A stretch of DNA of 64,000 nucleotides, from contig NZ_CP121017.1 of assembly GCF_041468085.1 (NCBI RefSeq), positions 2,335,501 to 2,399,500 of the forward strand. The letters run 5' to 3'. This document shows, in pieces, positions 26,216-38,453 of this stretch. Position 1 is the stretch's first letter. Each line of letters opens with the position of its first letter. Made by a program: the position numbers and the translations under genes. Origin of the DNA: Tistrella mobilis. GTDB lineage: Bacteria; Pseudomonadota; Alphaproteobacteria; Tistrellales; Tistrellaceae. The notes below the pieces were generated by a model. The model did no database searches. It was given only the letters and a program-made list of their open reading frames with translations, and was not told the origin of the DNA.

Positions 26216-26559
26216 GGAATCACGCAGTCGTCACGGCGTCAATCGGCCTTCGCCGGCGCACTGCACCCCGACAGATATTTGTCATTCCCTGTTGCCCGGG
26301 CGCCGCGCGCTCCTTGCCTGCGCGACCCGTCACAAATATGGCTAAATTTTAACCATGCCATGTCATCTGACGGTTTTTTGAGCGAACCCAACACCGTTCG
26401 GACACCTGCGCGCCTGTCGCCACCTACGTAATCTTCCCCGGAGAGAATCGCGGAGCCCTGCGGACATGAGGAACAAGATCTCCTACTTGGGCATGTTTGG
26501 TCCGCTTCTTGCTGAATTTGTCCATGGATCGGAACAACGCGCCCTACCGGAGGCCGTCT
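26216..26559. promoter_or_regulatory. Divergent ftsB/urtA control region
   Basis: A 344-nt region without a gene. It has AT-rich symmetric elements rare in this genome: ATATTTGT (26275-26282) and ACAAATAT (26332-26339), inverted with centres 57 nt apart, and a 19-bp near-palindrome at 26338-26356 (ATGG-C-TAAA-T-TTTA-A-CCAT). A sigma-54 type promoter candidate for urtA lies near the right end. No riboswitch is recognisable. Confidence 0.5.
26498..26513 (+). promoter_or_regulatory. Candidate sigma-54 promoter of urtA
   Basis: TGG at 26498-26500 and TTGCT at 26509-26513 place GG (-24) and GC (-12) with exactly 10 nt between, as the sigma-54 consensus TGGCACG-N4-TTGCA requires. The TGG and TTGC cores match; the CACG part is TCCG. 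Transcription would start about 36 nt before the urtA ATG. Control of urea-transport operons by NtrC and sigma-54 is known, and ntrBC are in this window. Confidence 0.55.
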
Positions 26560-27831
26560 ATGAAACTCATCGTCCGCACCATCGCCAGCGGCGCCATTCT
26601 CGCCGCAGCCGCCGTCAGCACCGCCACTGCCGCAGAACCCATCAAGGTGGGCGTGCTGCACTCGCTGTCGGGCACCATGGCGATCAGCGAGACCACCCTC
26701 AAGGACACCGTGCTGATGCTGGTGGACGAGGTGAACAAGAGCGGCGGCCTGCTTGGCCGGCCGCTTGAAGCGGTCGTCGTCGATCCGGCGTCGAACTGGC
26801 CGCTGTTCGCCGAGAAGGCCCGCGAACTGATCGAAAAGGACAAGGTGGACGTCGTCTTCGGTTGCTGGACGTCGGTGTCGCGCAAGTCCGTCCTGCCTGT
26901 ATTCGAAGAACTGGACAGCCTGCTGTTCTATCCTGTGCAGTACGAGGGGGAGGAAAGCTCGCGCAACGTCTTCTATACCGGTGCCGCCCCCAACCAGCAG
27001 GCCATCCCGGCCGTCGAATACCTGATGAGCGAGGATGGCGGGGCGGCCAAGCGCTGGGTTCTGCTCGGCACCGACTATGTCTACCCGCGCACGACCAACA
27101 AGATCCTGCGGGCTTTCCTGAACTCCAAGGGTGTCTCGGATGGCGATATCATGGAGAGCTATACGCCCTTCGGCCACAGCGACTGGCAGACCATCGTCTC
27201 TGACGTGAAGAAGTTCGCCAGCGCCGGCAAGAAGACCGCCGTGGTCTCCACCATCAACGGCGATGCCAACGTGCCGTTCTACAAAGAACTGGCCAACCAG
27301 GGCATCGATGCCGCCGACATTCCGGTGGTTGCCTTCTCGGTGGGCGAGGAAGAACTGGCCGGCCTCGACACCGGCCCGCTGGTCGGCCATCTGGCTGCCT
27401 GGAACTATTTCATGTCGGTCGACACGCCCGAAAACGCCGAGTTCATCAAGAAGTGGCACGCCTTCATCAAGAGCGACAAGCGCGTCGTCAACGACCCGAT
27501 GGAGGCGACCTATATCGGCTTCAAGATGTGGACGCAGGCCGTTCTGCAGGCCGGCACCACGGATGTGGACGCCGTGCGTCAGGCCATGTACGGCCAGACG
27601 GTGCCGTCGCTGACCGGCACCACGGCCGTGATGAACGTCAACCACCACCTGTCGAAGCCGGTGCTGATCGGCGAGATCCAGGGTGACGGCCAGTTCTCGA
27701 CGGTGTGGAAGACCGACGGGCCCATCGTGGGCGACGCCTGGTCCGACTACATCCCGGAAAGCGCCAAGCTGACGGCCGACTGGACCTATCCCTGGGTCTG
27801 CGGCAACTGCGAAACGCCCAAATACAAGTGA
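26560..27831 (+). CDS. urtA: Urea ABC transporter substrate-binding protein UrtA
   Basis: Periplasmic binding protein (type I fold, amide/urea family) that delivers urea to UrtBC. The 423-residue protein starts with a signal peptide (MKLIVRTIASGAILAAAAVSTATAA, cleavage near residue 25) followed by EPIKVGVLHSLSGTMAISE. Typical UrtA blocks follow: FGCWTSVSRKSVLPVFEE, LLFYPVQYEGEE and GTDYVYPRTTNKILR. The ATG at 26560 has GGAGG 6 nt upstream; the longer frame precedes the signal peptide. First gene of urtABCDE-ureDABCEFG. Confidence 0.97.
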   Translation: MKLIVRTIASGAILAAAAVSTATAAEPIKVGVLHSLSGTMAISETTLKDTVLMLVDEVNKSGGLLGRPLEAVVVDPASNWPLFAEKARELIEKDKVDVVFGCWTSVSRKSVLPVFEELDSLLFYPVQYEGEESSRNVFYTGAAPNQQAIPAVEYLMSEDGGAAKRWVLLGTDYVYPRTTNKILRAFLNSKGVSDGDIMESYTPFGHSDWQTIVSDVKKFASAGKKTAVVSTINGDANVPFYKELANQGIDAADIPVVAFSVGEEELAGLDTGPLVGHLAAWNYFMSVDTPENAEFIKKWHAFIKSDKRVVNDPMEATYIGFKMWTQAVLQAGTTDVDAVRQAMYGQTVPSLTGTTAVMNVNHHLSKPVLIGEIQGDGQFSTVWKTDGPIVGDAWSDYIPESAKLTADWTYPWVCGNCETPKYK

Positions 27832-27847
27832 TGCGCTGACATCACGG

Positions 27848-27888
27848 CTGCCCCACCGGGCCACGCCGCCCGTGGCCCGGTGGGGCAG
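27848..27888 (+). promoter_or_regulatory. Perfect 18-bp hairpin between urtA and urtB
   Basis: The 18-nt arms 27848-27865 and 27871-27888 are exact complements around a 5-nt loop (CCGCC), beginning 17 nt after the urtA stop. There is no T-tract. Its position after a binding-protein gene and before the permease gene is typical of stems that protect the upstream mRNA or partly terminate, so that binding protein exceeds permease. Confidence 0.75.
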
Positions 27889-28098
27889 CAACCTTCACGG
27901 AAAGTCTTCACCGATCGGACGGTGGCCCGTGCCGCCCGATCGCGGAGGACGGGGCTTCGGCAGCCTGTCTGCGGCCGCGGTACGCTCTCCCGCCGTCGGA
28001 GCATCACGCAGGCCGAAGCCCCACCCTGCCAATGCCGCCCCGGGTCGGCCGGTGAGTTCGCCGGCAGCATCCTGACGCGGTCGCAGAAGACGAGCCCG

Positions 28099-29838
28099 AT
28101 GCCCGGACAAGCGATATCTCCCCGCCGGCCCGCCGGCGGCCCCGCCACGCTGCTGCGCGCGCTCGCGCTGGCCGCGGTGCTGCTGATCCTGCCGTTCGCC
28201 ACCGGCCCATCCACTTTCTCACCCGTAGGCATGGCCGTCGCGCAAACCGCTGACGACGCCCCCACGGCGGAAGAAGATGCACAGCTGCGCGCAGCACTCG
28301 CAACCGAGGGCAGCGGCTTCGACGGCGCACTTGCGCTTATCCGCGCCCTGGCCGCCACCGGTGATGCCCGTGCAGCCCGTGCGATCGACGCCCTTCAATC
28401 CGGCAGCCTCGGCCGGCGCAGCGACGGCAGTCTGGTGATTCTGGAAGGTCGTGCCAGCGACGCCAGCATGCGTGATCCGGTAACCGGCGAGGATCTCGGC
28501 AAAGCGGAGGCCGGCCAGGTCGATCGGATCCGGGTCAACAACCGTGTGCGGGTCGAAGCCCGCGCTGCGATGGGCCTGATCGACCTCAGGGCCAAAAGGC
28601 CGGAACGCCGGATTGCTGCCGCAGACGGGCTGGTCAAGACTCCGGACGCCGCTGCCCTGCCACTGCTCACGCAAGCCATCGAGACCGAGACCAACGGCCG
28701 GGCCCGCGAAGCGCTGACCAAAGCACTGGCCGCCGTGCAGGCCTTTTATGCCGAAAACCCGGAAGAGCGGCTCCAGGCGATCGAAACTCTCGGCGACTAT
28801 GCGGATCCGCAGGTCCGCAGCCTGCTCGGCCGGATCGCCGACGGCACGCCCGAAGGTCTGCCGCCGGATGCCGCCCAGGCGGTCAAGGGCGCCGCGATCG
28901 ATGCGCTCGCCGCCGTGGAAGCCAAGCTCGAAATGTGGGCCCTGGTCGGCAACGTCTATCAGGGGCTGAGCCTCGGCTCCGTGCTCGTCCTTGCCGCCAC
29001 CGGTCTTGCCATCACCTTCGGCGTGATGGGCGTGATCAACATGGCCCATGGCGAGATGGTCATGCTCGGCGCCTATACGACCTTTCTGGTTCAGCAGGGC
29101 ATCGCAGCCGCCGCACCGGCCCTGATGCCGGTCTCGCTGCTGATCGCCCTGCCCGCGGCCTTTCTGGTGTCGGGGGCCGCGGGCTTCGCGATCGAGCGCA
29201 GCGTGATCCGCTGGCTCTACGGTCGGCCGCTCGAAACCCTGCTTGCGACCTGGGGGCTCAGCCTGATCATTCAGCAGGCGGTACGGTCAGTCTTCGGGCC
29301 CACCAACCGGGAGGTCTCCAGCCCCGACTGGATGAGCGGCGCCTTCGAGATCGCCGGCGGTATCACGCTGACCTATAACCGGCTCTGGATCCTGGCCTTC
29401 TCCCTGGTCGTAGTGGCGGGCGTCGCCCTGCTGCTGCGCAAGACCTCCCTCGGCCTGCATGTCCGCGCCGTCACCCAGAACCGCGCCATGGCCTCGTCCA
29501 TGGGCATCCGCACCGGCCGGATCGACGCGCTGACCTTCGCGCTCGGTTCCGGTATCGCCGGCATTGCCGGCGTGGCGCTCAGCCAGATCGACAATGTCAG
29601 CCCCAATCTCGGCCAGGGCTACATCATCGACAGCTTCATGGTGGTGGTGTTCGGCGGTGTCGGCACGCTCTGGGGCACACTGATCGGCGGTTTCGCCCTG
29701 GGTGTGGTGAACAAGCTGCTGGAACCCTTCGCCGGTGCGGTGCTCGCCAAGATCCTGGTGCTGATCGCGATCATCCTGTTCATCCAGAAGCGGCCGCGCG
29801 GTCTGTTCGCGCTCAAGGGCCGCGCGGTGGAGGCCTGA
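28099..29838 (+). CDS. urtB: Urea ABC transporter permease UrtB
   Basis: LivH-type inner-membrane permease of the urea transporter, 579 residues. As is usual for UrtB, a signal-like helix (about 18-40) and an extracytoplasmic helical domain of about 250 residues precede the permease domain (from about residue 290: GNVYQGLSLGSVLVLAATGLAITFGVMGVINMAHGEMVMLGAY) with about eight membrane helices. The start MPGQAISPRR is chosen because it directly precedes the leader helix; its ribosome binding site is weak and the frame is open further upstream without similarity. It is followed by urtC after 3 nt. Confidence 0.93.
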   Translation: MPGQAISPRRPAGGPATLLRALALAAVLLILPFATGPSTFSPVGMAVAQTADDAPTAEEDAQLRAALATEGSGFDGALALIRALAATGDARAARAIDALQSGSLGRRSDGSLVILEGRASDASMRDPVTGEDLGKAEAGQVDRIRVNNRVRVEARAAMGLIDLRAKRPERRIAAADGLVKTPDAAALPLLTQAIETETNGRAREALTKALAAVQAFYAENPEERLQAIETLGDYADPQVRSLLGRIADGTPEGLPPDAAQAVKGAAIDALAAVEAKLEMWALVGNVYQGLSLGSVLVLAATGLAITFGVMGVINMAHGEMVMLGAYTTFLVQQGIAAAAPALMPVSLLIALPAAFLVSGAAGFAIERSVIRWLYGRPLETLLATWGLSLIIQQAVRSVFGPTNREVSSPDWMSGAFEIAGGITLTYNRLWILAFSLVVVAGVALLLRKTSLGLHVRAVTQNRAMASSMGIRTGRIDALTFALGSGIAGIAGVALSQIDNVSPNLGQGYIIDSFMVVVFGGVGTLWGTLIGGFALGVVNKLLEPFAGAVLAKILVLIAIILFIQKRPRGLFALKGRAVEA

Positions 29839-29841
29839 CCC

Positions 29842-31044
29842 ATGGCATCGACCACCGAACCCACCACCGCTCCCCGTCAGGCCTTGCGCGGGCTGGCGCG
29901 CGGCCCGCGCAGGCCGATCCTGCTGGCCCTGCTCGGCGATCGCGGCGGGCTGATCTTCATGGGGCTCATCGCAGCCTCGGCCGTGCTGATGCCGATCTCG
30001 GCCCTGGTGCTGCCCGCGGAGCATCCGCTGGCGATCCCGTCCTACATGGTATCGCTGTTCGGGAAGTATCTCTGCTACGCGCTGCTCGCACTCGCCCTCG
30101 ACCTGGTCTGGGGCTATTGCGGCATCCTCAGTCTGGGACACGGCGCCTTCTTCGCCCTCGGCGGCTATGCCATGGGCATGCATCTGATGCGCGAGATCGG
30201 CCCGCGCGGCGTCTATGGCAACCCGATCCTGCCCGATTTCATGGTCTTCCTGAACTGGCAGGAACTGCCCTGGTACTGGTACGGCTTCGACATGGCATGG
30301 TTTGCGATCCTGATGGCGCTGGTCGTCCCCGGCCTGCTCGCCTTCGTGCTCGGCTGGCTGTGCTTCCGCTCACGGGTGACCGGCGTCTATCTGTCGATCA
30401 TCACCCAGGCCATGACCTACGCCCTGCTGCTCGCCTTCTTCCGCAACGACATGGGCTTCGGCGGCAATAACGGCCTCACCGACTTCAAGGACCTGTTCGG
30501 CTACAGCCTTCAGGCACCCGAGATGCGGGTGGCACTCTATTCCGCCACCGCCATCGCCCTGGTCGGCGCCTATGCGCTCTCGCGCATCGTCGTCACATCG
30601 AAGCTCGGCAAGGTGCTGGTCTCGATCCGCGACGCCGAAAGCCGGGTGCGCTTCCTGGGTTACCGGGTGGAGCACTACAAGCTCTTCGTCTTCGTCCTCT
30701 CGGCCATGCTGGCCGGCATCGCCGGCGCGCTCTATGTCCCCCAGGTCGGCATCATCAATCCGGGCGAGTTTGCACCTGCCAACTCGATCGAGGCCGTGAT
30801 CTGGGTGGCGGTCGGCGGCCGCGGCACGCTCTGGGGCGCCGCCCTCGGCGGCATCACGGTCAATTGGGCCAAGACCTGGTTCACCGGCGCCCTGCCCGAA
30901 TTCTGGCTCTTCGCGCTCGGAGCGCTCTTCATTGCGGTGACACTGTTCCTGCCCAAGGGGCTGGTGGGCAGACTGCCTGCCTTCCCCTCCTTCGGCCGCC
31001 GTCGCGAGAGTGCTTCCCCTGCCGTCACGGAGGATCGCGGATGA
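29842..31044 (+). CDS. urtC: Urea ABC transporter permease UrtC
   Basis: LivM-type second permease of the urea transporter, 400 residues with about ten membrane helices. Family blocks include LCYALLALALDLVWGYCGILSLGHGAFFALGGYAMGMH and FLGYRVEHYKLFVFVLSAMLAGIAGALYVPQVGIINP. It overlaps urtD by 4 nt (ATGA). The last 30 residues are a charged cytoplasmic tail. Confidence 0.96.
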   Translation: MASTTEPTTAPRQALRGLARGPRRPILLALLGDRGGLIFMGLIAASAVLMPISALVLPAEHPLAIPSYMVSLFGKYLCYALLALALDLVWGYCGILSLGHGAFFALGGYAMGMHLMREIGPRGVYGNPILPDFMVFLNWQELPWYWYGFDMAWFAILMALVVPGLLAFVLGWLCFRSRVTGVYLSIITQAMTYALLLAFFRNDMGFGGNNGLTDFKDLFGYSLQAPEMRVALYSATAIALVGAYALSRIVVTSKLGKVLVSIRDAESRVRFLGYRVEHYKLFVFVLSAMLAGIAGALYVPQVGIINPGEFAPANSIEAVIWVAVGGRGTLWGAALGGITVNWAKTWFTGALPEFWLFALGALFIAVTLFLPKGLVGRLPAFPSFGRRRESASPAVTEDRG

Positions 31045-31844
31045 CCGTGCACACCGCCGACCTGCTGGCCGATACCGGCACCGCGCCCGACGGTACCCGC
31101 AATCCCAGAGGCAGCGCTCTCTATCTCGACGGCGTGACCGTCAGCTTCGACGGCTTCCGGGCGCTGAACGAACTGTCGCTGGTGGTCGATCATGGCGAGC
31201 TACGCGCCGTGATCGGCCCCAACGGCGCCGGCAAGACCACCATGATGGACGTGATGACCGGCAAGACCCGGCCGGACAAGGGCAAGGTCCTGCTCGACGG
31301 CTCGATCGACCTCACCAGACTCGACGAGGCGCGCATCGCAACCCTCGGCATCGGCCGCAAGTTCCAGAAACCCAGCGTCTTCGAAACCCACACGGTGGTC
31401 GACAATCTGGAACTCGCCCTTGCCGGCGACCGCAGCCCGTTCGCCGCGCTCAAATTCCGGCGAACGGCCGAGAAGGCGGCGCGAATCGAGGCGGTTCTGG
31501 AAGACATCGCCCTCGCCCATCGCGCTCACGAGCCCGCAGGCCGGCTCAGTCATGGCCAGAAACAATGGCTGGAAATCGGCATGCTGCTGATGCAGCAACC
31601 GCGGGTGCTGCTGGTCGACGAGCCGGCGGCCGGCATGACCGATGCCGAGACCTCGCAGACCGCCGTGCTGCTGAAGCGCCTGGCGCAGTCTCATGCGGTA
31701 ATCGTGGTCGAACACGATATGGGCTTCGTGCGTGATCTGGACTGCAAGGTGACCGTACTGCACGAAGGCTCGGTGCTCGCCGAAGGCTCTCTCGACCATG
31801 TCCAGGCCGACCAGCGGGTCGTGGACGTCTATCTCGGCCGCTGA
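31041..31844 (+). CDS. urtD: Urea ABC transporter ATP-binding protein UrtD
   Basis: LivG-type ATPase subunit, 267 residues. Walker A GPNGAGKTT, signature SHGQKQ (the motif seen in UrtD instead of SGGQ), Walker B VLLVDEPAAGM and switch His in VVEHDM are visible. The start overlaps the urtC stop. A 25-residue N-terminal extension precedes the ABC domain. Confidence 0.96.
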   Translation: MTVHTADLLADTGTAPDGTRNPRGSALYLDGVTVSFDGFRALNELSLVVDHGELRAVIGPNGAGKTTMMDVMTGKTRPDKGKVLLDGSIDLTRLDEARIATLGIGRKFQKPSVFETHTVVDNLELALAGDRSPFAALKFRRTAEKAARIEAVLEDIALAHRAHEPAGRLSHGQKQWLEIGMLLMQQPRVLLVDEPAAGMTDAETSQTAVLLKRLAQSHAVIVVEHDMGFVRDLDCKVTVLHEGSVLAEGSLDHVQADQRVVDVYLGR

Positions 31845-31859
31845 CGGAGGCTCGCCCCC

Positions 31860-32555
31860 ATGCTCGACGTTCATGCGCTGGATGTGCATTACGGTTCGGC
31901 CCAGGCGCTCAAGGGCGTCTCGATCGAGGCGCGCGCTGGCGAGATCACCTGCGTGCTCGGACGCAACGGCGTCGGCAAGACCACGCTGATGCGTGCCATC
32001 ACCGGTCATCTGAAACCCTCGGCCGGCAGCATCAAGCTGGATGGCGCCGATCTCGCCGGCCGCGCGCCCTATGACCGGGCCCGATCCGGCATCGGTTTCG
32101 TGCCGCAGGGCCGCGAGGTGTTTCCCCTGCTGACGGTGGAAGAGAACCTGCGCACCGGCCTCGCCGCCCGGCCGCGCAAGCTGGAGCGGAAGATCCCCGA
32201 CGACATCTTCGCGCTCTTCCCCGTGCTCAAATCCATGCTCGGCCGGCGGGGTGGCGACCTGTCGGGCGGACAGCAGCAGCAGCTCGCCATCGGCCGCGCG
32301 CTCGTCACTGCGCCAAAACTGTTGGTCCTGGACGAGCCGACCGAGGGCATCCAGCCCTCGATCATCAAGGATATCGGCCGGGTGATCCGGCTTCTCGCCC
32401 GGGAACGGGGGCTTGCAGTGGTGCTCGTGGAGCAGTATTTCGATTTCGCCCAGGAGCTTGCGGATCGCTTCATCGTGCTGGATCGCGGTGAGGTCATCGC
32501 CGCCGGAGACGGGGCGGCCCTCGACGACGACATCCGTCGCCACCTCACCGTCTGA
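31860..32555 (+). CDS. urtE: Urea ABC transporter ATP-binding protein UrtE
   Basis: LivF-type ATPase subunit, 231 residues. Walker A GRNGVGKTT, signature LSGGQQQQL, Walker B LLVLDEPTEGIQPSII and switch region VLVEQYFDFA are visible. It follows urtD by 15 nt with GGAGG upstream, and ureD begins 18 nt downstream, so transporter and urease genes probably share one transcript. Confidence 0.96.
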   Translation: MLDVHALDVHYGSAQALKGVSIEARAGEITCVLGRNGVGKTTLMRAITGHLKPSAGSIKLDGADLAGRAPYDRARSGIGFVPQGREVFPLLTVEENLRTGLAARPRKLERKIPDDIFALFPVLKSMLGRRGGDLSGGQQQQLAIGRALVTAPKLLVLDEPTEGIQPSIIKDIGRVIRLLARERGLAVVLVEQYFDFAQELADRFIVLDRGEVIAAGDGAALDDDIRRHLTV

Positions 32556-32573: not shown

Positions 32574-33530
32574 GTGCAGATTCCCAAAGACGATGCGGCT
32601 CGTGCCCGGCGCGCCGCCCTGGATCACGGCCGTTTGACCCTGGTGATGGGCCCCGCCCCCACGGCCAGGCGTGGCCTGCGCGACCTTGTCCAGCAGGTGC
32701 CCTATCGGGCGCTCTTCCCCCATGCCGAGCCTGGTGAGCCACCGATGGTGGTGGTCACCAGCACCTCCGGCGGCATCGTCGGCGGCGACCGGCTGGGCCT
32801 CGACGTGACGGTCCAGGACGGCGCCCGGCTGCTGCTGATGCCGCAGGCGGCAGAGCGGGTCTATCGCACCACCGGCCCGGTCTCGACCATCGACAACCTG
32901 TTCCGGATCGGCAGCGGCGCCAGCTTCGAGTGGCTGCCGCAGGAAACGATCATCTACGATCAGGCGCGTTTCGAGCGCCGCACCCGGCTGGTGCTTGCCG
33001 ATCACACCTCTCATGCGCTGTTCGGCGAGATGCTCGTGCTGGGGCGGACTGCCCATGGCGAGAGCGTCATGCGTGCCCGATTGCGCGATGCCTGGGCAGT
33101 CGAGCGTGCAGGAAGGCTTCTGCTCGCCGATGCCTTCGATATTGCCGAGGAGGATTTCGCTGCGGCCCTCACCAGCCCGTCGGCGCTGGGCGGCATGACC
33201 GCAATCGCAGGATTCTGCGGGATCGGCAGTTCCGACGAAGCCGCACGCCAGGCGCTCCGCGACCGGCTGCGGCAGGAGCTGGAGGCAGCCGAAGGTCCGG
33301 AACCGGCTTTCGGCACGAAACATGCATCGAATTCGGCAGGGTCTGTTGCGGATCCGGATGCTCTGACCCGCCCCGTGGTGGGGATCGGTCTGGTCGACGG
33401 GTGTCTGGTGGTGCGGATGGCGGGGAGAGATGCCGCCCGTCTGAAACGGGTCTTCGATCGGCTGTGGGTGGTGGCGCGATCGGAACTTCTTCATCATCCA
33501 CCGCGTTTACCGCGCATCCGCCGCGGCTGA
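32574..33530 (+). CDS. ureD: Urease accessory protein UreD
   Basis: Scaffold protein that, with UreF and UreG, delivers nickel to apo-urease. The 318-residue protein has UreD blocks [23 protein letters not shown] and [23 protein letters not shown]. It is somewhat longer than usual (about 270-290), with an insertion of about 25 Ala/Glu/Gly-rich residues near 245-270. The start is a GTG at 32574 without a strong ribosome binding site; the next in-frame start would cut conserved sequence. Confidence 0.9.
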
Positions 33531-33597: not shown

Positions 33598-33900
33598 ATG
33601 CATCTGAGCCCTCGGGAAACGGAAAAACTGCTGATCGCCATGGCGGCAGAGGTGGCGCGTAAGCGCCGTGCCCGCGGCGTGAAGCTCAACTATCCGGAAG
33701 CAATTGCGCTGATCACCGATTTCGTGGTCGAAGGCGCCCGCGACGGCCGCAGCGTCGCTGATCTGATGGCGGCCGGCGGCCGGGTACTCACCCGCGACGA
33801 GGTGATGCCCGGCATTCCCGAGATGATCGAGCAGATCCAGGTCGAAGCGACCTTCCCCGACGGGACCAAGCTGGTCACCGTCCACAACCCGATCCGCTGA
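33598..33900 (+). CDS. ureA: Urease gamma subunit
   Basis: Smallest structural subunit of urease, exactly the family length of 100 residues. It begins [39 protein letters not shown] and ends with [15 protein letters not shown]. It follows ureD by 67 nt and precedes ureB by 10 nt. Confidence 0.98.
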
Positions 33901-33910
33901 GGGCATCAGG

Positions 33911-34309
33911 ATGACCGAGACCACCCTGCCCCTCTCTTCCGCGGACGCGCCGTTTTCGCCCGATGCCGAGGGTCTGGCCCCCGGTGCGATCATCCCTGCC
34001 GCCGGTGTGATCACCCTCAATGCCGGCCGCCCGACCGTAGAGATCGAGGTTGCCAATACCGGTGACCGGCCGGTGCAGGTCGGGTCGCACTATCATTTCT
34101 ACGAGACCAATACCGGCCTCGTTTTCGATCGTGCCGCAGCCTGGGGCATGCGGCTCGACGTTCCCGCCGGCTCGGCAGTCCGCTTCGAGCCCGGTCAGAC
34201 CCGCAGCGTGCGCCTGGTCGCCTATCAGGGTGACCGCGTGGTGCATGGTTTCGACGGCAAGGTGTCGGGCGCGCTTGGCGCCGCAGCGCCCAAGGGCGGG
34301 GAGGGCTGA
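33911..34309 (+). CDS. ureB: Urease beta subunit
   Basis: Structural subunit of urease, 132 residues. The core [40 protein letters not shown] is preceded by an N-terminal extension of about 22 residues relative to the common 101-105 residue form. ureC starts 4 nt after its stop, with the ribosome binding site GGGGAGGG inside its last codons. Confidence 0.97.
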
Positions 34310-34313
34310 ACAC

Positions 34314-36023
<1,710 letters not shown>

Positions 36024-36134: not shown

Positions 36135-36977
36135 ATGAAGATGACCCAGCTTTCCGCCACTGCCGCCGCCGTCGAGAAGATCACGCCCCTGATTCCGGAG
36201 GTCCCTCAGTCGGTCATGCCCAGGGCCGTGCAGGTGGTGACCGCCGCTTTGCCGGTTCTGGGATCCGATGCCGCCTGGGGCACCATCACCCTGCCGCATG
36301 CCGACCGTCATCGCCGGCGGATCCGGCTTGCCACCGATGACGGCCGCGCTTTCCTTCTGGATCTGCGCGAGGCCGTAAGGTTGGCGGATGGCGACCGGCT
36401 GATGCTGGATCAGGGCGGCCATGTCGTGGTCCGGGCTGCGCCAGAGGCGGTGATCGAGGCCGAAACGGCGGACCGTCGAGATCTCGTCCGCATCGCCTGG
36501 CACCTGGGCAACCGGCATGTTCCGCTTGCTGTGACCACCCACGTCGTAACGCCGCGACTGCTCATCTCCCGGGACCTGGTCGCACGCGATCTGCTCGGCC
36601 GCCTGGGCGCACATCTGACGGAAACGGTAGCACCCTTTGATCCCGAACCAATACTGGGCGCCGCCGGGATGGCCGCGGGTGAAGATCCCGGCCACAGCCA
36701 TGATCACGGGCATGGGCATCACGACCACGGCCATGCCACGAAGGTGACCACAGCCGTCGATCTGGTTGGCGGCACAGGTGCCGACACGGCCCGCGCCGCC
36801 TGGCAGATCGGCAACCGCCATCGGCCGGCGCAGGTGGTCGACGGCTGGCGGATCCGCACGGCGGATGAGCCGCTGGTCCGCCGTATCGCCGCCGCCCTGG
36901 GTTTGCGGATCCTGCCCGCCGCGGACACCTTCGAGCCTGAACCCGGTGCCTATGCCGATCACGCCCATCACCACTGA
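36135..36977 (+). CDS. ureE: Urease nickel metallochaperone UreE with duplicated C-terminal domain
   Basis: Nickel-binding chaperone that supplies Ni to UreG. The 280-residue protein is much longer than ordinary UreE (about 150-200). Residues ~30-105 are the UreE N-terminal domain. The C-terminal nickel-binding domain appears twice: residues ~113-172 (RIAWHLGNRH at 119-128, ending APFDPEP) and ~214-273 (RAAWQIGNRH at 220-229, ending DTFEPEPGAY). The copies are joined by a His-rich linker at 187-200 (HSHDHGHGHHDHGH), and the protein ends in HAHHH. GGAG lies 10 nt before the ATG. It is preceded by a 111-nt gap after ureC and followed by ureF after 7 nt. Confidence 0.93.
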   Translation: MKMTQLSATAAAVEKITPLIPEVPQSVMPRAVQVVTAALPVLGSDAAWGTITLPHADRHRRRIRLATDDGRAFLLDLREAVRLADGDRLMLDQGGHVVVRAAPEAVIEAETADRRDLVRIAWHLGNRHVPLAVTTHVVTPRLLISRDLVARDLLGRLGAHLTETVAPFDPEPILGAAGMAAGEDPGHSHDHGHGHHDHGHATKVTTAVDLVGGTGADTARAAWQIGNRHRPAQVVDGWRIRTADEPLVRRIAAALGLRILPAADTFEPEPGAYADHAHHH

Positions 36978-36984
36978 TCCTGCC

Positions 36985-37740
36985 ATGACCACCGAAGGAC
37001 AGGTTCTGCTGTATGGCTGGCCGGGTGGCCCGGAGGCCCCCTTAGTGGCGGCAGGCCCACGGGCTCTGCACCGGCTGCTTGCCTGGACCAGCCCCAGCTT
37101 CCCCATCGGGGCCTTCAGCTACAGCCATGGGCTGGAACAGGCGATCGAGGATGGCACAGTCGGCACGGCAGAGACCCTGGCCGGCTGGATCGGTGGCGTC
37201 CTGCGTTTCGGGGCCGGGCGGACCGATGCCGGCTTCGCCGTGCGTGCAGCCCGCCAGGCACAGGCGGGTGACATGGCCGGGCTCGTCGAGACCGCGATCG
37301 TCTCCTCAGCCCTGACGCCTGCCGGCGAGCGGGCATTGGAAGCGCGACAGCAGGGTCGGTCATTTCTGGAAGCCGTGGCGCGTGGCTGGGCGCTGAACGA
37401 AGCCGCGGACTTGGCGGCACGGCTCGACGCCGCAGAAGTACCGGCCACCCTGCCGATCGCCGCGGGCGCCTGCGGCGGATGGGCAGGTCTGCCCGAAGAC
37501 ATGCTGATCGAAGCCTTCGTTCACGCTTTCGCCGCCAATCTCGTCTCCGCCGGGGTCCGGCTGGTGCCACTGGGACAGACCGATGGCCAGCGGGTGCTGG
37601 CAGCGCTGGGTCCCGTGATCGGTGCGGTGGCCGCTGCGGCCCGCGCCGGCCCCGAGGCCGCTCCGGGTGGGGCTGCGATCCTCGCCGACATTGCCGCTCT
37701 CAGACACGAAACCCTTTATTCCAGGCTGTTCCGCTCATGA
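36985..37740 (+). CDS. ureF: Urease accessory protein UreF
   Basis: Regulator of UreG GTPase in the UreDFG maturation complex, 251 residues, all-helical. Family blocks are [27 protein letters not shown] and [35 protein letters not shown]. The ATG at 36985 lies 7 nt after ureE; an ATG at 36952 would overlap ureE. Neither has a clear ribosome binding site, so translation is probably coupled. The first 25 residues are not conserved. Confidence 0.93.
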
Positions 37741-38453
37741 CGACGCTCGCCCCCGCGCCCATCCCGCTCACCCCTCAGGGCAGCTCCCGGCCGTTGCGCA
37801 TCGGCGTCGGTGGCCCCGTCGGCTCCGGCAAGACCGCCCTTCTCGAAGTGCTCTGCCGCAGGCTGCGCGACAGCTATCGGATCGCGGCGATCACCAACGA
37901 CATCTACACCCAGGAGGACGCGCAGATCCTGACCCGGGCCGGCGCCCTGGCGCCGGAGCGGATCATGGGGGTGGAAACGGGCGGATGCCCGCATACCGCC
38001 ATCCGGGAAGATGCCTCGATCAACCTCGCGGCCGTGGCCGAGATGAGCATACGCTTTCCCGATCTCGAACTCATCTTCGTTGAAAGCGGCGGCGACAATC
38101 TGTCGGCCACTTTCTCGCCCGAACTTGCCGACATCACGATCTATGTGATCGACGTGGCGGCAGGCGAGAAGATCCCGCGCAAGGGCGGCCCCGGCATCAC
38201 CCGCTCGGATCTGCTGGTGATCAACAAGGTCGATCTGGCCCCCCTGGTCGGCGCCGATCTCGGGATCATGGAGCGGGATGCCGCCCGCATGCGCGGCCGC
38301 CGCCCCTTCCTGTTCACCAACATGAAGAGTGGCGCCGGAGTCGACGCCCTGATCGCCCGCCTGCTGGACCTGGGCGGGCTGGATGATCGTCTCGGCGTGT
38401 CGTCCGCGGCGCCGCTGGATGTCGCAGCGGCCAGAGCCGAGGCCGCTGCCTGA
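37737..38453 (+). CDS. ureG: Urease accessory GTPase UreG
   Basis: SIMIBI-class GTPase that carries nickel to urease, 238 residues. P-loop [13 protein letters not shown] (about 25-37), the nickel-binding CPH motif (Cys84-His86 in [11 protein letters not shown]), and guanine-specificity NKVDLAP are visible. The ATG overlaps the ureF stop by 4 nt. It is the last gene of the urea cluster. The first 18 residues are a Pro-rich extension without the His-rich stretch some UreG proteins have. Confidence 0.97.

Follow-up and report, generated by a model that had tools for sequence, protein, structure and literature searches.

A UreE nickel chaperone with a duplicated C-terminal domain in the urease operon of Tistrella

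The urease operon of Tistrella mobilis encodes a UreE protein of 280 amino acids in which the C-terminal domain, expected once per chain in the UreE architecture, is found twice in one chain (C1 and C2; Table 1). The operon is located in a window of 64,000 nucleotides, the whole stretch of DNA analysed here (NZ_CP121017.1, positions 2,335,501 to 2,399,500 of the forward strand). While UreE itself is already known, a UreE with a duplicated C-terminal domain that is conserved and so far genus-specific appears to be new. The two copies have diverged from one another in different ways, tentatively suggesting that they may have become partners in a single nickel site.

The gene is located within a complete ureD-ureA-ureB-ureC-ureE-ureF-ureG operon identified by Pfam, with genes encoding a urea transporter (urtC, urtD and urtE, identified by NCBIfam) found directly upstream. 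A run of ABC-transporter genes at positions 26497-32555 leads into the urease operon and includes frames read by eye as encoding a binding protein and a UrtB-like protein. Inspected by eye, the translation of urease alpha retains the known active-site motifs, and the urease of this operon is therefore probably functional.

Pfam analysis of the 280-residue open reading frame identifies one UreE_N domain and UreE_C in two stretches, and when the halves of the protein are separated both score above the PF05194 cut-off of 23 bits (64.3 bits for the first and 54.8 bits for the second), in agreement with the initial annotation of this DNA, which had described the C-terminal domain as occurring twice. 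The whole protein scores 149.1 bits against the NCBIfam equivalog NF009751.0 (cut-off 144), the first half alone scoring 99.1 bits, and scores under the cut-offs of the other NCBIfam UreE models. By these matches, the predicted product is UreE, the urease nickel chaperone of Tistrella. The motifs named in the initial annotation are located where it placed them (AWHLGNRH at residues 121-128, AWQIGNRH at 222-229, FDPEP at 168-172, FEPEP at 266-270 and HAHHH at 276-280), and the linker that it reported is indeed a His/Asp/Gly run, but one of 15 residues rather than 14. This run lies within a connector of approximately 35 residues between the folded C1 and C2, and histidines are found C-terminal to both domains, such that each copy has its own histidine stretch. 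Two start codons are possible for ureE. The one at position 36216 (M28) aligns with the ordinary UreE start and has GGAGG upstream, but in the comparison with T. mobilis KA081020-065 residues 1-44 have a dN/dS of 0.14, suggesting that the upstream ATG at position 36135 may well be the start used.

Table 1. Coordinates within the window of the urease operon genes and of the domains and motifs encoded by ureE.
Feature	Position	Strand	Basis or remark
ureD	32574..33530	+	Pfam
ureA (urease gamma)	33598..33900	+	Pfam
ureB (urease beta)	33911..34309	+	Pfam
Open frame containing ureC (urease alpha; gene start further in)	34050..36023	+	Pfam
ureE, 280 aa: UreE_N, C1 (UreE_C), His-rich connector, C2 (UreE_C), His tail	36135..36977	+	
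UreE_N domain, residues 45-96	36267..36422	+	Pfam PF02814, 51.1 bits (cut-off 26.9)
C1, first UreE_C domain, residues 104-172	36444..36650	+	Pfam match and structure model
GNRH of C1, residues 125-128	36507..36518	+	H128 is the putative interface nickel ligand, by homology (PMC13044922)
His/Asp/Gly run between C1 and C2, residues 186-200, 8 His	36690..36734	+	
C2, second UreE_C domain, residues 208-273	36756..36953	+	Pfam match and structure model
GNRH of C2, residues 226-229, including H229	36810..36821	+	
C-terminal tail, residues 274-280, 4 His	36954..36974	+	
ureF	36985..37740	+	Pfam; no NCBIfam match
Open frame containing ureG (gene start further in)	37479..38453	+	Pfam and NCBIfam

Structure prediction gives both copies the same order of elements, strand-helix-strand-strand-helix-strand, in C1 (residues 103-167) and C2 (residues 208-261) of a whole-chain AlphaFold2 model. 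This model was built from 47 aligned rows, only two of which, both from Tistrella, cover C2, where block means are 65-78 pLDDT. Modelled alone, C2 reaches a pLDDT of approximately 90 in the domain; the alignment used here adds 44 other rows, for the most part ordinary UreE domains, and itself steers the fold. The 14 PDB chains most similar to the C2-alone model are all UreE (Z 10.3 to 7.3), with the best match to 1gmv_B (Z 10.3, rmsd 2.5, 75 aligned); the best non-UreE chain, at Z 7.0, is tied with the last UreE rows. The initial annotation had named a second segment that does not fold as a UreE C-terminal domain as the result that would speak against its reading, and the fold predicted here is instead of the UreE type. 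Both its sequence and its predicted fold thus identify C2 as a genuine UreE C-terminal domain. The whole model aligns with 1gmv_B over residues 28-173 (Z 13.8, rmsd 1.7), and its alignments with the H. pylori UreE chains 3tj9_A and 3ny0_B end inside C2, at model residues 230 and 253. That these alignments reach C2 at the end of the C-terminal arm of the H. pylori protein is a weak hint at the placement of C2 in the model.

The resemblance between the copies is not due to chance, since the local alignment of C1 with C2 scores 78 against a maximum of 45 in 1000 shuffles (mean 25.4, sd 4.7). At the DNA level the best local alignment extends over only 31 bases, across the AW..GNRH codons, indicating that the duplication is old; a recent duplication is thereby ruled out, as the initial annotation had judged from the divergence of the repeats. 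The same two-domain UreE is encoded by the two other Tistrella genomes in our sample of three, which includes that of the window, with 92% and 93% identity; one of these is T. mobilis KA081020-065. Between the window and this strain, dN/dS is 0 in the N-terminal domain (no non-synonymous change), 0.017 in C1, 0.21 in the connector and 0.074 in C2, the last from 20 synonymous and 5 non-synonymous differences over 66 codons. The value for C2 points to purifying selection, and by this comparison both copies are under such selection. Synonymous divergence is uneven along ureE (36135-36977 compared with positions 3001-3843 of L067), with dS of 0.35 in the N-terminal domain, 0.83 in C1 and 0.49 in C2, possibly by chance or through recombination.

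The residues kept and lost by each copy were identified by comparison with 134 other UreE C-terminal domains and with a control set, consisting of 60 additional UreE loci taken from genome scans that had listed them without a locus. The first set is biased; 77 of its 134 rows come from a scan with patterns including AWHLGNRH, so that invariance in those rows is partly built in, and the remaining 57 are the best-scoring profile matches. The GNRH histidine is kept in both C1 (H128) and C2 (H229), and is found in 134/134 rows of the first set, 57/57 of its profile-found rows and 59/60 control loci. This position is the nickel ligand at the dimer interface (PmH103 = KaH96 = HpH102 = SpH100; PMC13044922). 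In each of the three Tistrella genomes C2 has an intact GNRH, together with GAY and the terminal histidines. Two residues before GNRH, C2 has Gln224 in place of a histidine that is likewise found in 134/134, 57/57 and 59/60; the sole control exception at both histidine positions is L182, a mis-cut row that actually reads HLGNRH. C2 also has Glu245 where 133/134 rows and 60/60 control loci have Asp, and Leu247 where 134/134 and 58/60 have Val. In C1, by comparison, four residues are inserted after β8, and the tyrosine of the GAY motif, which follows F-x-P-E, is absent while C2 keeps it (132/134, 57/57 profile-found and 57/60 control); if the tail of C1 is shifted by two residues in the alignment, its GA is retained and the loss is limited to the Tyr. 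As the counts for the invariant histidine and the GAY tyrosine hold in the control set, these main losses stand. The H110/H112 pair, which forms the second metal site of K. aerogenes, is numbered as in PMC13044922 and placed on the alignment by our own mapping. It is found in neither copy (R146/L148 in C1 and D244/P246 in C2), while the position of H112 is occupied by His in 118/134 rows and 44/60 control loci. The description of both domains as nickel-binding in the initial annotation can thus be upheld in part, for the GNRH histidine is kept in both, but C2 has Gln224 and Glu245 at conserved positions and neither copy has the H110/H112 pair; as read from the alignment, the description would apply to just the single ligand position that the two have in common.

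Scored by structural element, α3 is unremarkable in C1 (57th percentile among the 134, with 15/60 control loci as low), while α3 of C2 is poor, below all 134 and matched by only 1/60 control loci. The GAY tail is broken in C1 (0/60 control loci as low) and intact in C2. Reciprocal wear of β8 was also considered and is withdrawn; in the first set C1 is below all 134 and C2 at 6%, but 18/60 and 9/60 control loci are as low as or lower than C1 and C2, respectively, and against the 57 profile-found rows both copies are below all. Other elements are poor without being reciprocal, including α4 in both copies (each below all 134, with 1/60 control loci as low for C1 and 0/60 for C2), β10 in C2, and strand 1, which is poor in both copies against the 134 set although that of C1 is not poor against the control 60. 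Among 15 columns identical in at least 130 of the 134 rows, only a Met is lost in both copies by hand count, which is about what independence gives.

The losses therefore differ between the copies, C1 having kept α3 and lost the GAY tyrosine and C2 having kept GAY and lost the α3 histidine. In the P. mirabilis UreE dimer, α3 of one protomer meets β8 and the C-terminal region of the other (PMC13044922, section 3.1). A symmetric dimer contains this contact between α3 and the tail twice, so one of the two could have survived the loss of the other, and a helix kept by C1 and a tail kept by C2 are as would be expected if this happened as C1 and C2 came to pair with each other. The long stems of both copies in the domain tree described below, the purifying selection on both and, as a weak hint, the alignments with H. 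pylori UreE that end inside C2 are also counted in favour of such pairing. Because each copy lost a different interface element, we tentatively favour, at somewhat less than even confidence, an asymmetric pairing of C1 and C2 around one shared nickel site of H128 and H229 over a doubled capacity. The internal pseudo-dimer site suggested in the initial annotation would fit these different losses. Under the asymmetric pairing, C1 and C2 would have become unequal partners that bind each other, with one nickel site formed by H128 of C1 and H229 of C2, and the connector of approximately 35 residues would allow either a pseudo-dimer within one chain or a crosswise swapped dimer with two mixed sites. 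The histidine run and tail may collect nickel with low affinity, as they do in other UreE proteins, and UreG, to which the nickel would be handed, would dock at the single N-terminal domain; Tistrella would thereby gain an asymmetric nickel site within the protein itself, more than a doubled store. That the protein functions as a natural single-chain asymmetric UreE, with complementary C-terminal halves, one mixed site of H128 and H229, and a single N-terminal domain, is a doubtful extension of this reading, but if true would mean that nickel can reach UreG without a two-fold symmetric dimer.

Wear that is not confined to the interface (α4 in both copies, and β10 and strand 1 in C2) counts against the pairing. 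With β8 withdrawn, the reciprocal pattern is down to two elements, making chance or general relaxation a real alternative, and as the three genomes represent one genus each loss counts as one event. The failure of β8 in the control set lowered our confidence in the pairing and in the single-chain case to the levels given above, and raised that in a C2 that is no longer a metal site. Such a C2 would have been retained because it binds UreG, UreF-UreD or urease as a partner or adds stability, and the ordinary nickel-binding dimer would be formed by C1. This is a rather unlikely alternative that accounts for the invariant His, Asp and Val lost at Q224, E245 and L247, for the loss of much of α4 and β10, for a dN/dS higher in C2 than in C1, and for the ordinary α3 of C1. 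It sits less well with the GNRH, GAY and terminal histidines that are intact in C2 across the three genomes, and with a C1 that is without the GAY tyrosine of ordinary homodimers.

The doubled nickel capacity raised in the initial annotation would require an ordinary C1-C1 dimer and a second, C2-C2 interface with its own nickel site, giving two GNRH sites per dimer and more tail histidines. The GNRH histidine in both domains, the ordinary α3 of C1 and the histidines that follow each domain are consistent with this arrangement, but α3, the core of the homodimer interface, is in C2 among the poorest compared (below 134/134, with 1/60 control loci as low), the invariant histidine is lost, and other UreE proteins raise capacity by longer histidine tails, making doubled capacity unlikely and less likely than the asymmetric pairing. 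A neutral leftover, in which C2 is tolerated without a role as what is left of a tandem duplication or of a fused second ureE, would explain its very long stem (2.69 in the tree described below) and its presence in one genus only, yet is very improbable given the low dN/dS of C2 over its 66 codons and the fold and GNRH that it has kept. An assembly, frame or gene-call error, which the initial annotation had already discounted, is ruled out by the same stop-free two-domain architecture in 3/3 genomes of the genus, that of T. mobilis KA081020-065 among them.

In the domain tree, the stems of C1 and C2 measure 1.37 and 2.69, respectively, compared with a median end branch of 0.16 and a longest single row of 1.12. 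C1 groups with the UreE of a Geminicoccaceae bacterium (99/82), a family under which the NCBI labels of the tree also list T. mobilis, while C2, with its very long branch, is unplaced. Constraining C1 and C2 to group with each other costs 15.8 log units, but the constrained tree is not rejected (p-AU 0.286); bootstrap values had not converged. In pairwise searches C2 is closer to ordinary alphaproteobacterial C-terminal domains (best approximately 1e-11) than to C1 (0.0026 to 0.12). As each copy has its own trailing histidines, the added unit appears to have been a C-terminal domain together with its histidine tail, and C2 may have arisen either through duplication within the gene or through the fusion of a second ureE from which the N-terminal domain was lost. 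A second ureE elsewhere in the genome was considered and rejected, as a search of the window's genome found no other UreE_C.

The initial annotation had proposed searching UreE proteins for this architecture, and the search finds it only in Tistrella. Whole-genome searches for UreE_C (E up to 0.001), in which the adjacency of matches was examined, identified adjacent double domains in 3/333 different Pseudomonadota genomes with a UreE_C match, all three from Tistrella, the 333 being samples of one phylum and not a census. Matches were found in 106/385 genomes of the same class, 147/398 of the same phylum, 17/31 of the order to which G132 belongs (in the tree, one of the two closest relatives with a single domain) and 85/369 of the class of G432, a different one within the phylum. 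In 14 other genomes of the 333, two or three UreE_C matches are on different contigs or more than 100 kb apart, although in the fragmented assembly of G291 the two matches are on different small contigs and one of them lies at the end of its contig, such that adjacency there is not strictly excluded. These genomes (G164, G261, G282, G291, G433, G506, G513, G528, G613, G732, G744, G745, G761 and G1010) often have one strong and one weak match, suggesting second, diverged ureE genes. Among 146 loci, all two-domain frames are from Tistrella (10 loci, repeats of the three genomes). No second two-domain case was found among 80 examined of at least 353 candidates confirmed in a scan of named genome contigs, nor among the 60 further UreE loci, and none of the 74 plasmid records with a UreE match covers 80% of the query. 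Two candidates were rejected: L074, the longest match among the ordinary relatives, is an ordinary UreE of 162 amino acids followed by sequence without a UreE frame, and L182 (from G535), the one control row with two profile matches in a frame, has one ordinary domain interrupted by an insertion. In L182, approximately 20 residues are inserted C-terminal to the GNRH strand within the C-terminal domain, splitting the profile match of an otherwise ordinary-looking UreE. From these comparisons, the architecture with two C-terminal domains looks confined to Tistrella. Among the titles and abstract openings listed in searches of the open-licence PMC literature, none describes such a UreE.

The canonical UreE proteins of Klebsiella aerogenes, Proteus mirabilis, Helicobacter pylori and Sporosarcina pasteurii share with the Tistrella protein UreE_N and UreE_C domains, the GNRH interface histidine, a histidine-rich stretch after the domain, and a gene located between ureC and ureF. 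The Tistrella protein differs in adding a second UreE_C after the histidine run, in a C2 without the invariant His and Asp, in a C1 without the GAY tyrosine, and in having no pair of the H110/H112 type in either copy. Where other genomes with more than one UreE_C (14/333) have the matches apart, Tistrella has both in one chain and no other in the genome. In the UreE proteins described in PMC13044922 and PMC7055735, the conserved nickel site lies between the identical halves of a homodimer, making the role of each half hard to separate; in a natural chain with two unequal copies each histidine could be changed alone, and such a chain could test whether one or two N-terminal domains are needed for nickel transfer to UreG. 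The protein also illustrates clearly how a domain of a metal chaperone can be duplicated and diverge, as yet in a single genus, and would be of modest interest if C2 were only a spare domain.

Extra sequence after an ordinary C-terminal domain is shared with UreE proteins that have long histidine tails (e.g., L045, L055 and L137), in which the extra part is low-complexity and histidine-rich, whereas in Tistrella it is predicted to be a second folded domain. Ordinary UreE with very long histidine-rich tails were identified at L045, L055, L052, L137, L133, L130 and L145, and across 136 ordinary UreE frames the sequence after GNRH reaches 173 residues and the number of histidines beyond the domain reaches 55. 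Some of these long-tailed proteins also contain Cys-containing motifs, such as GCGHDH.
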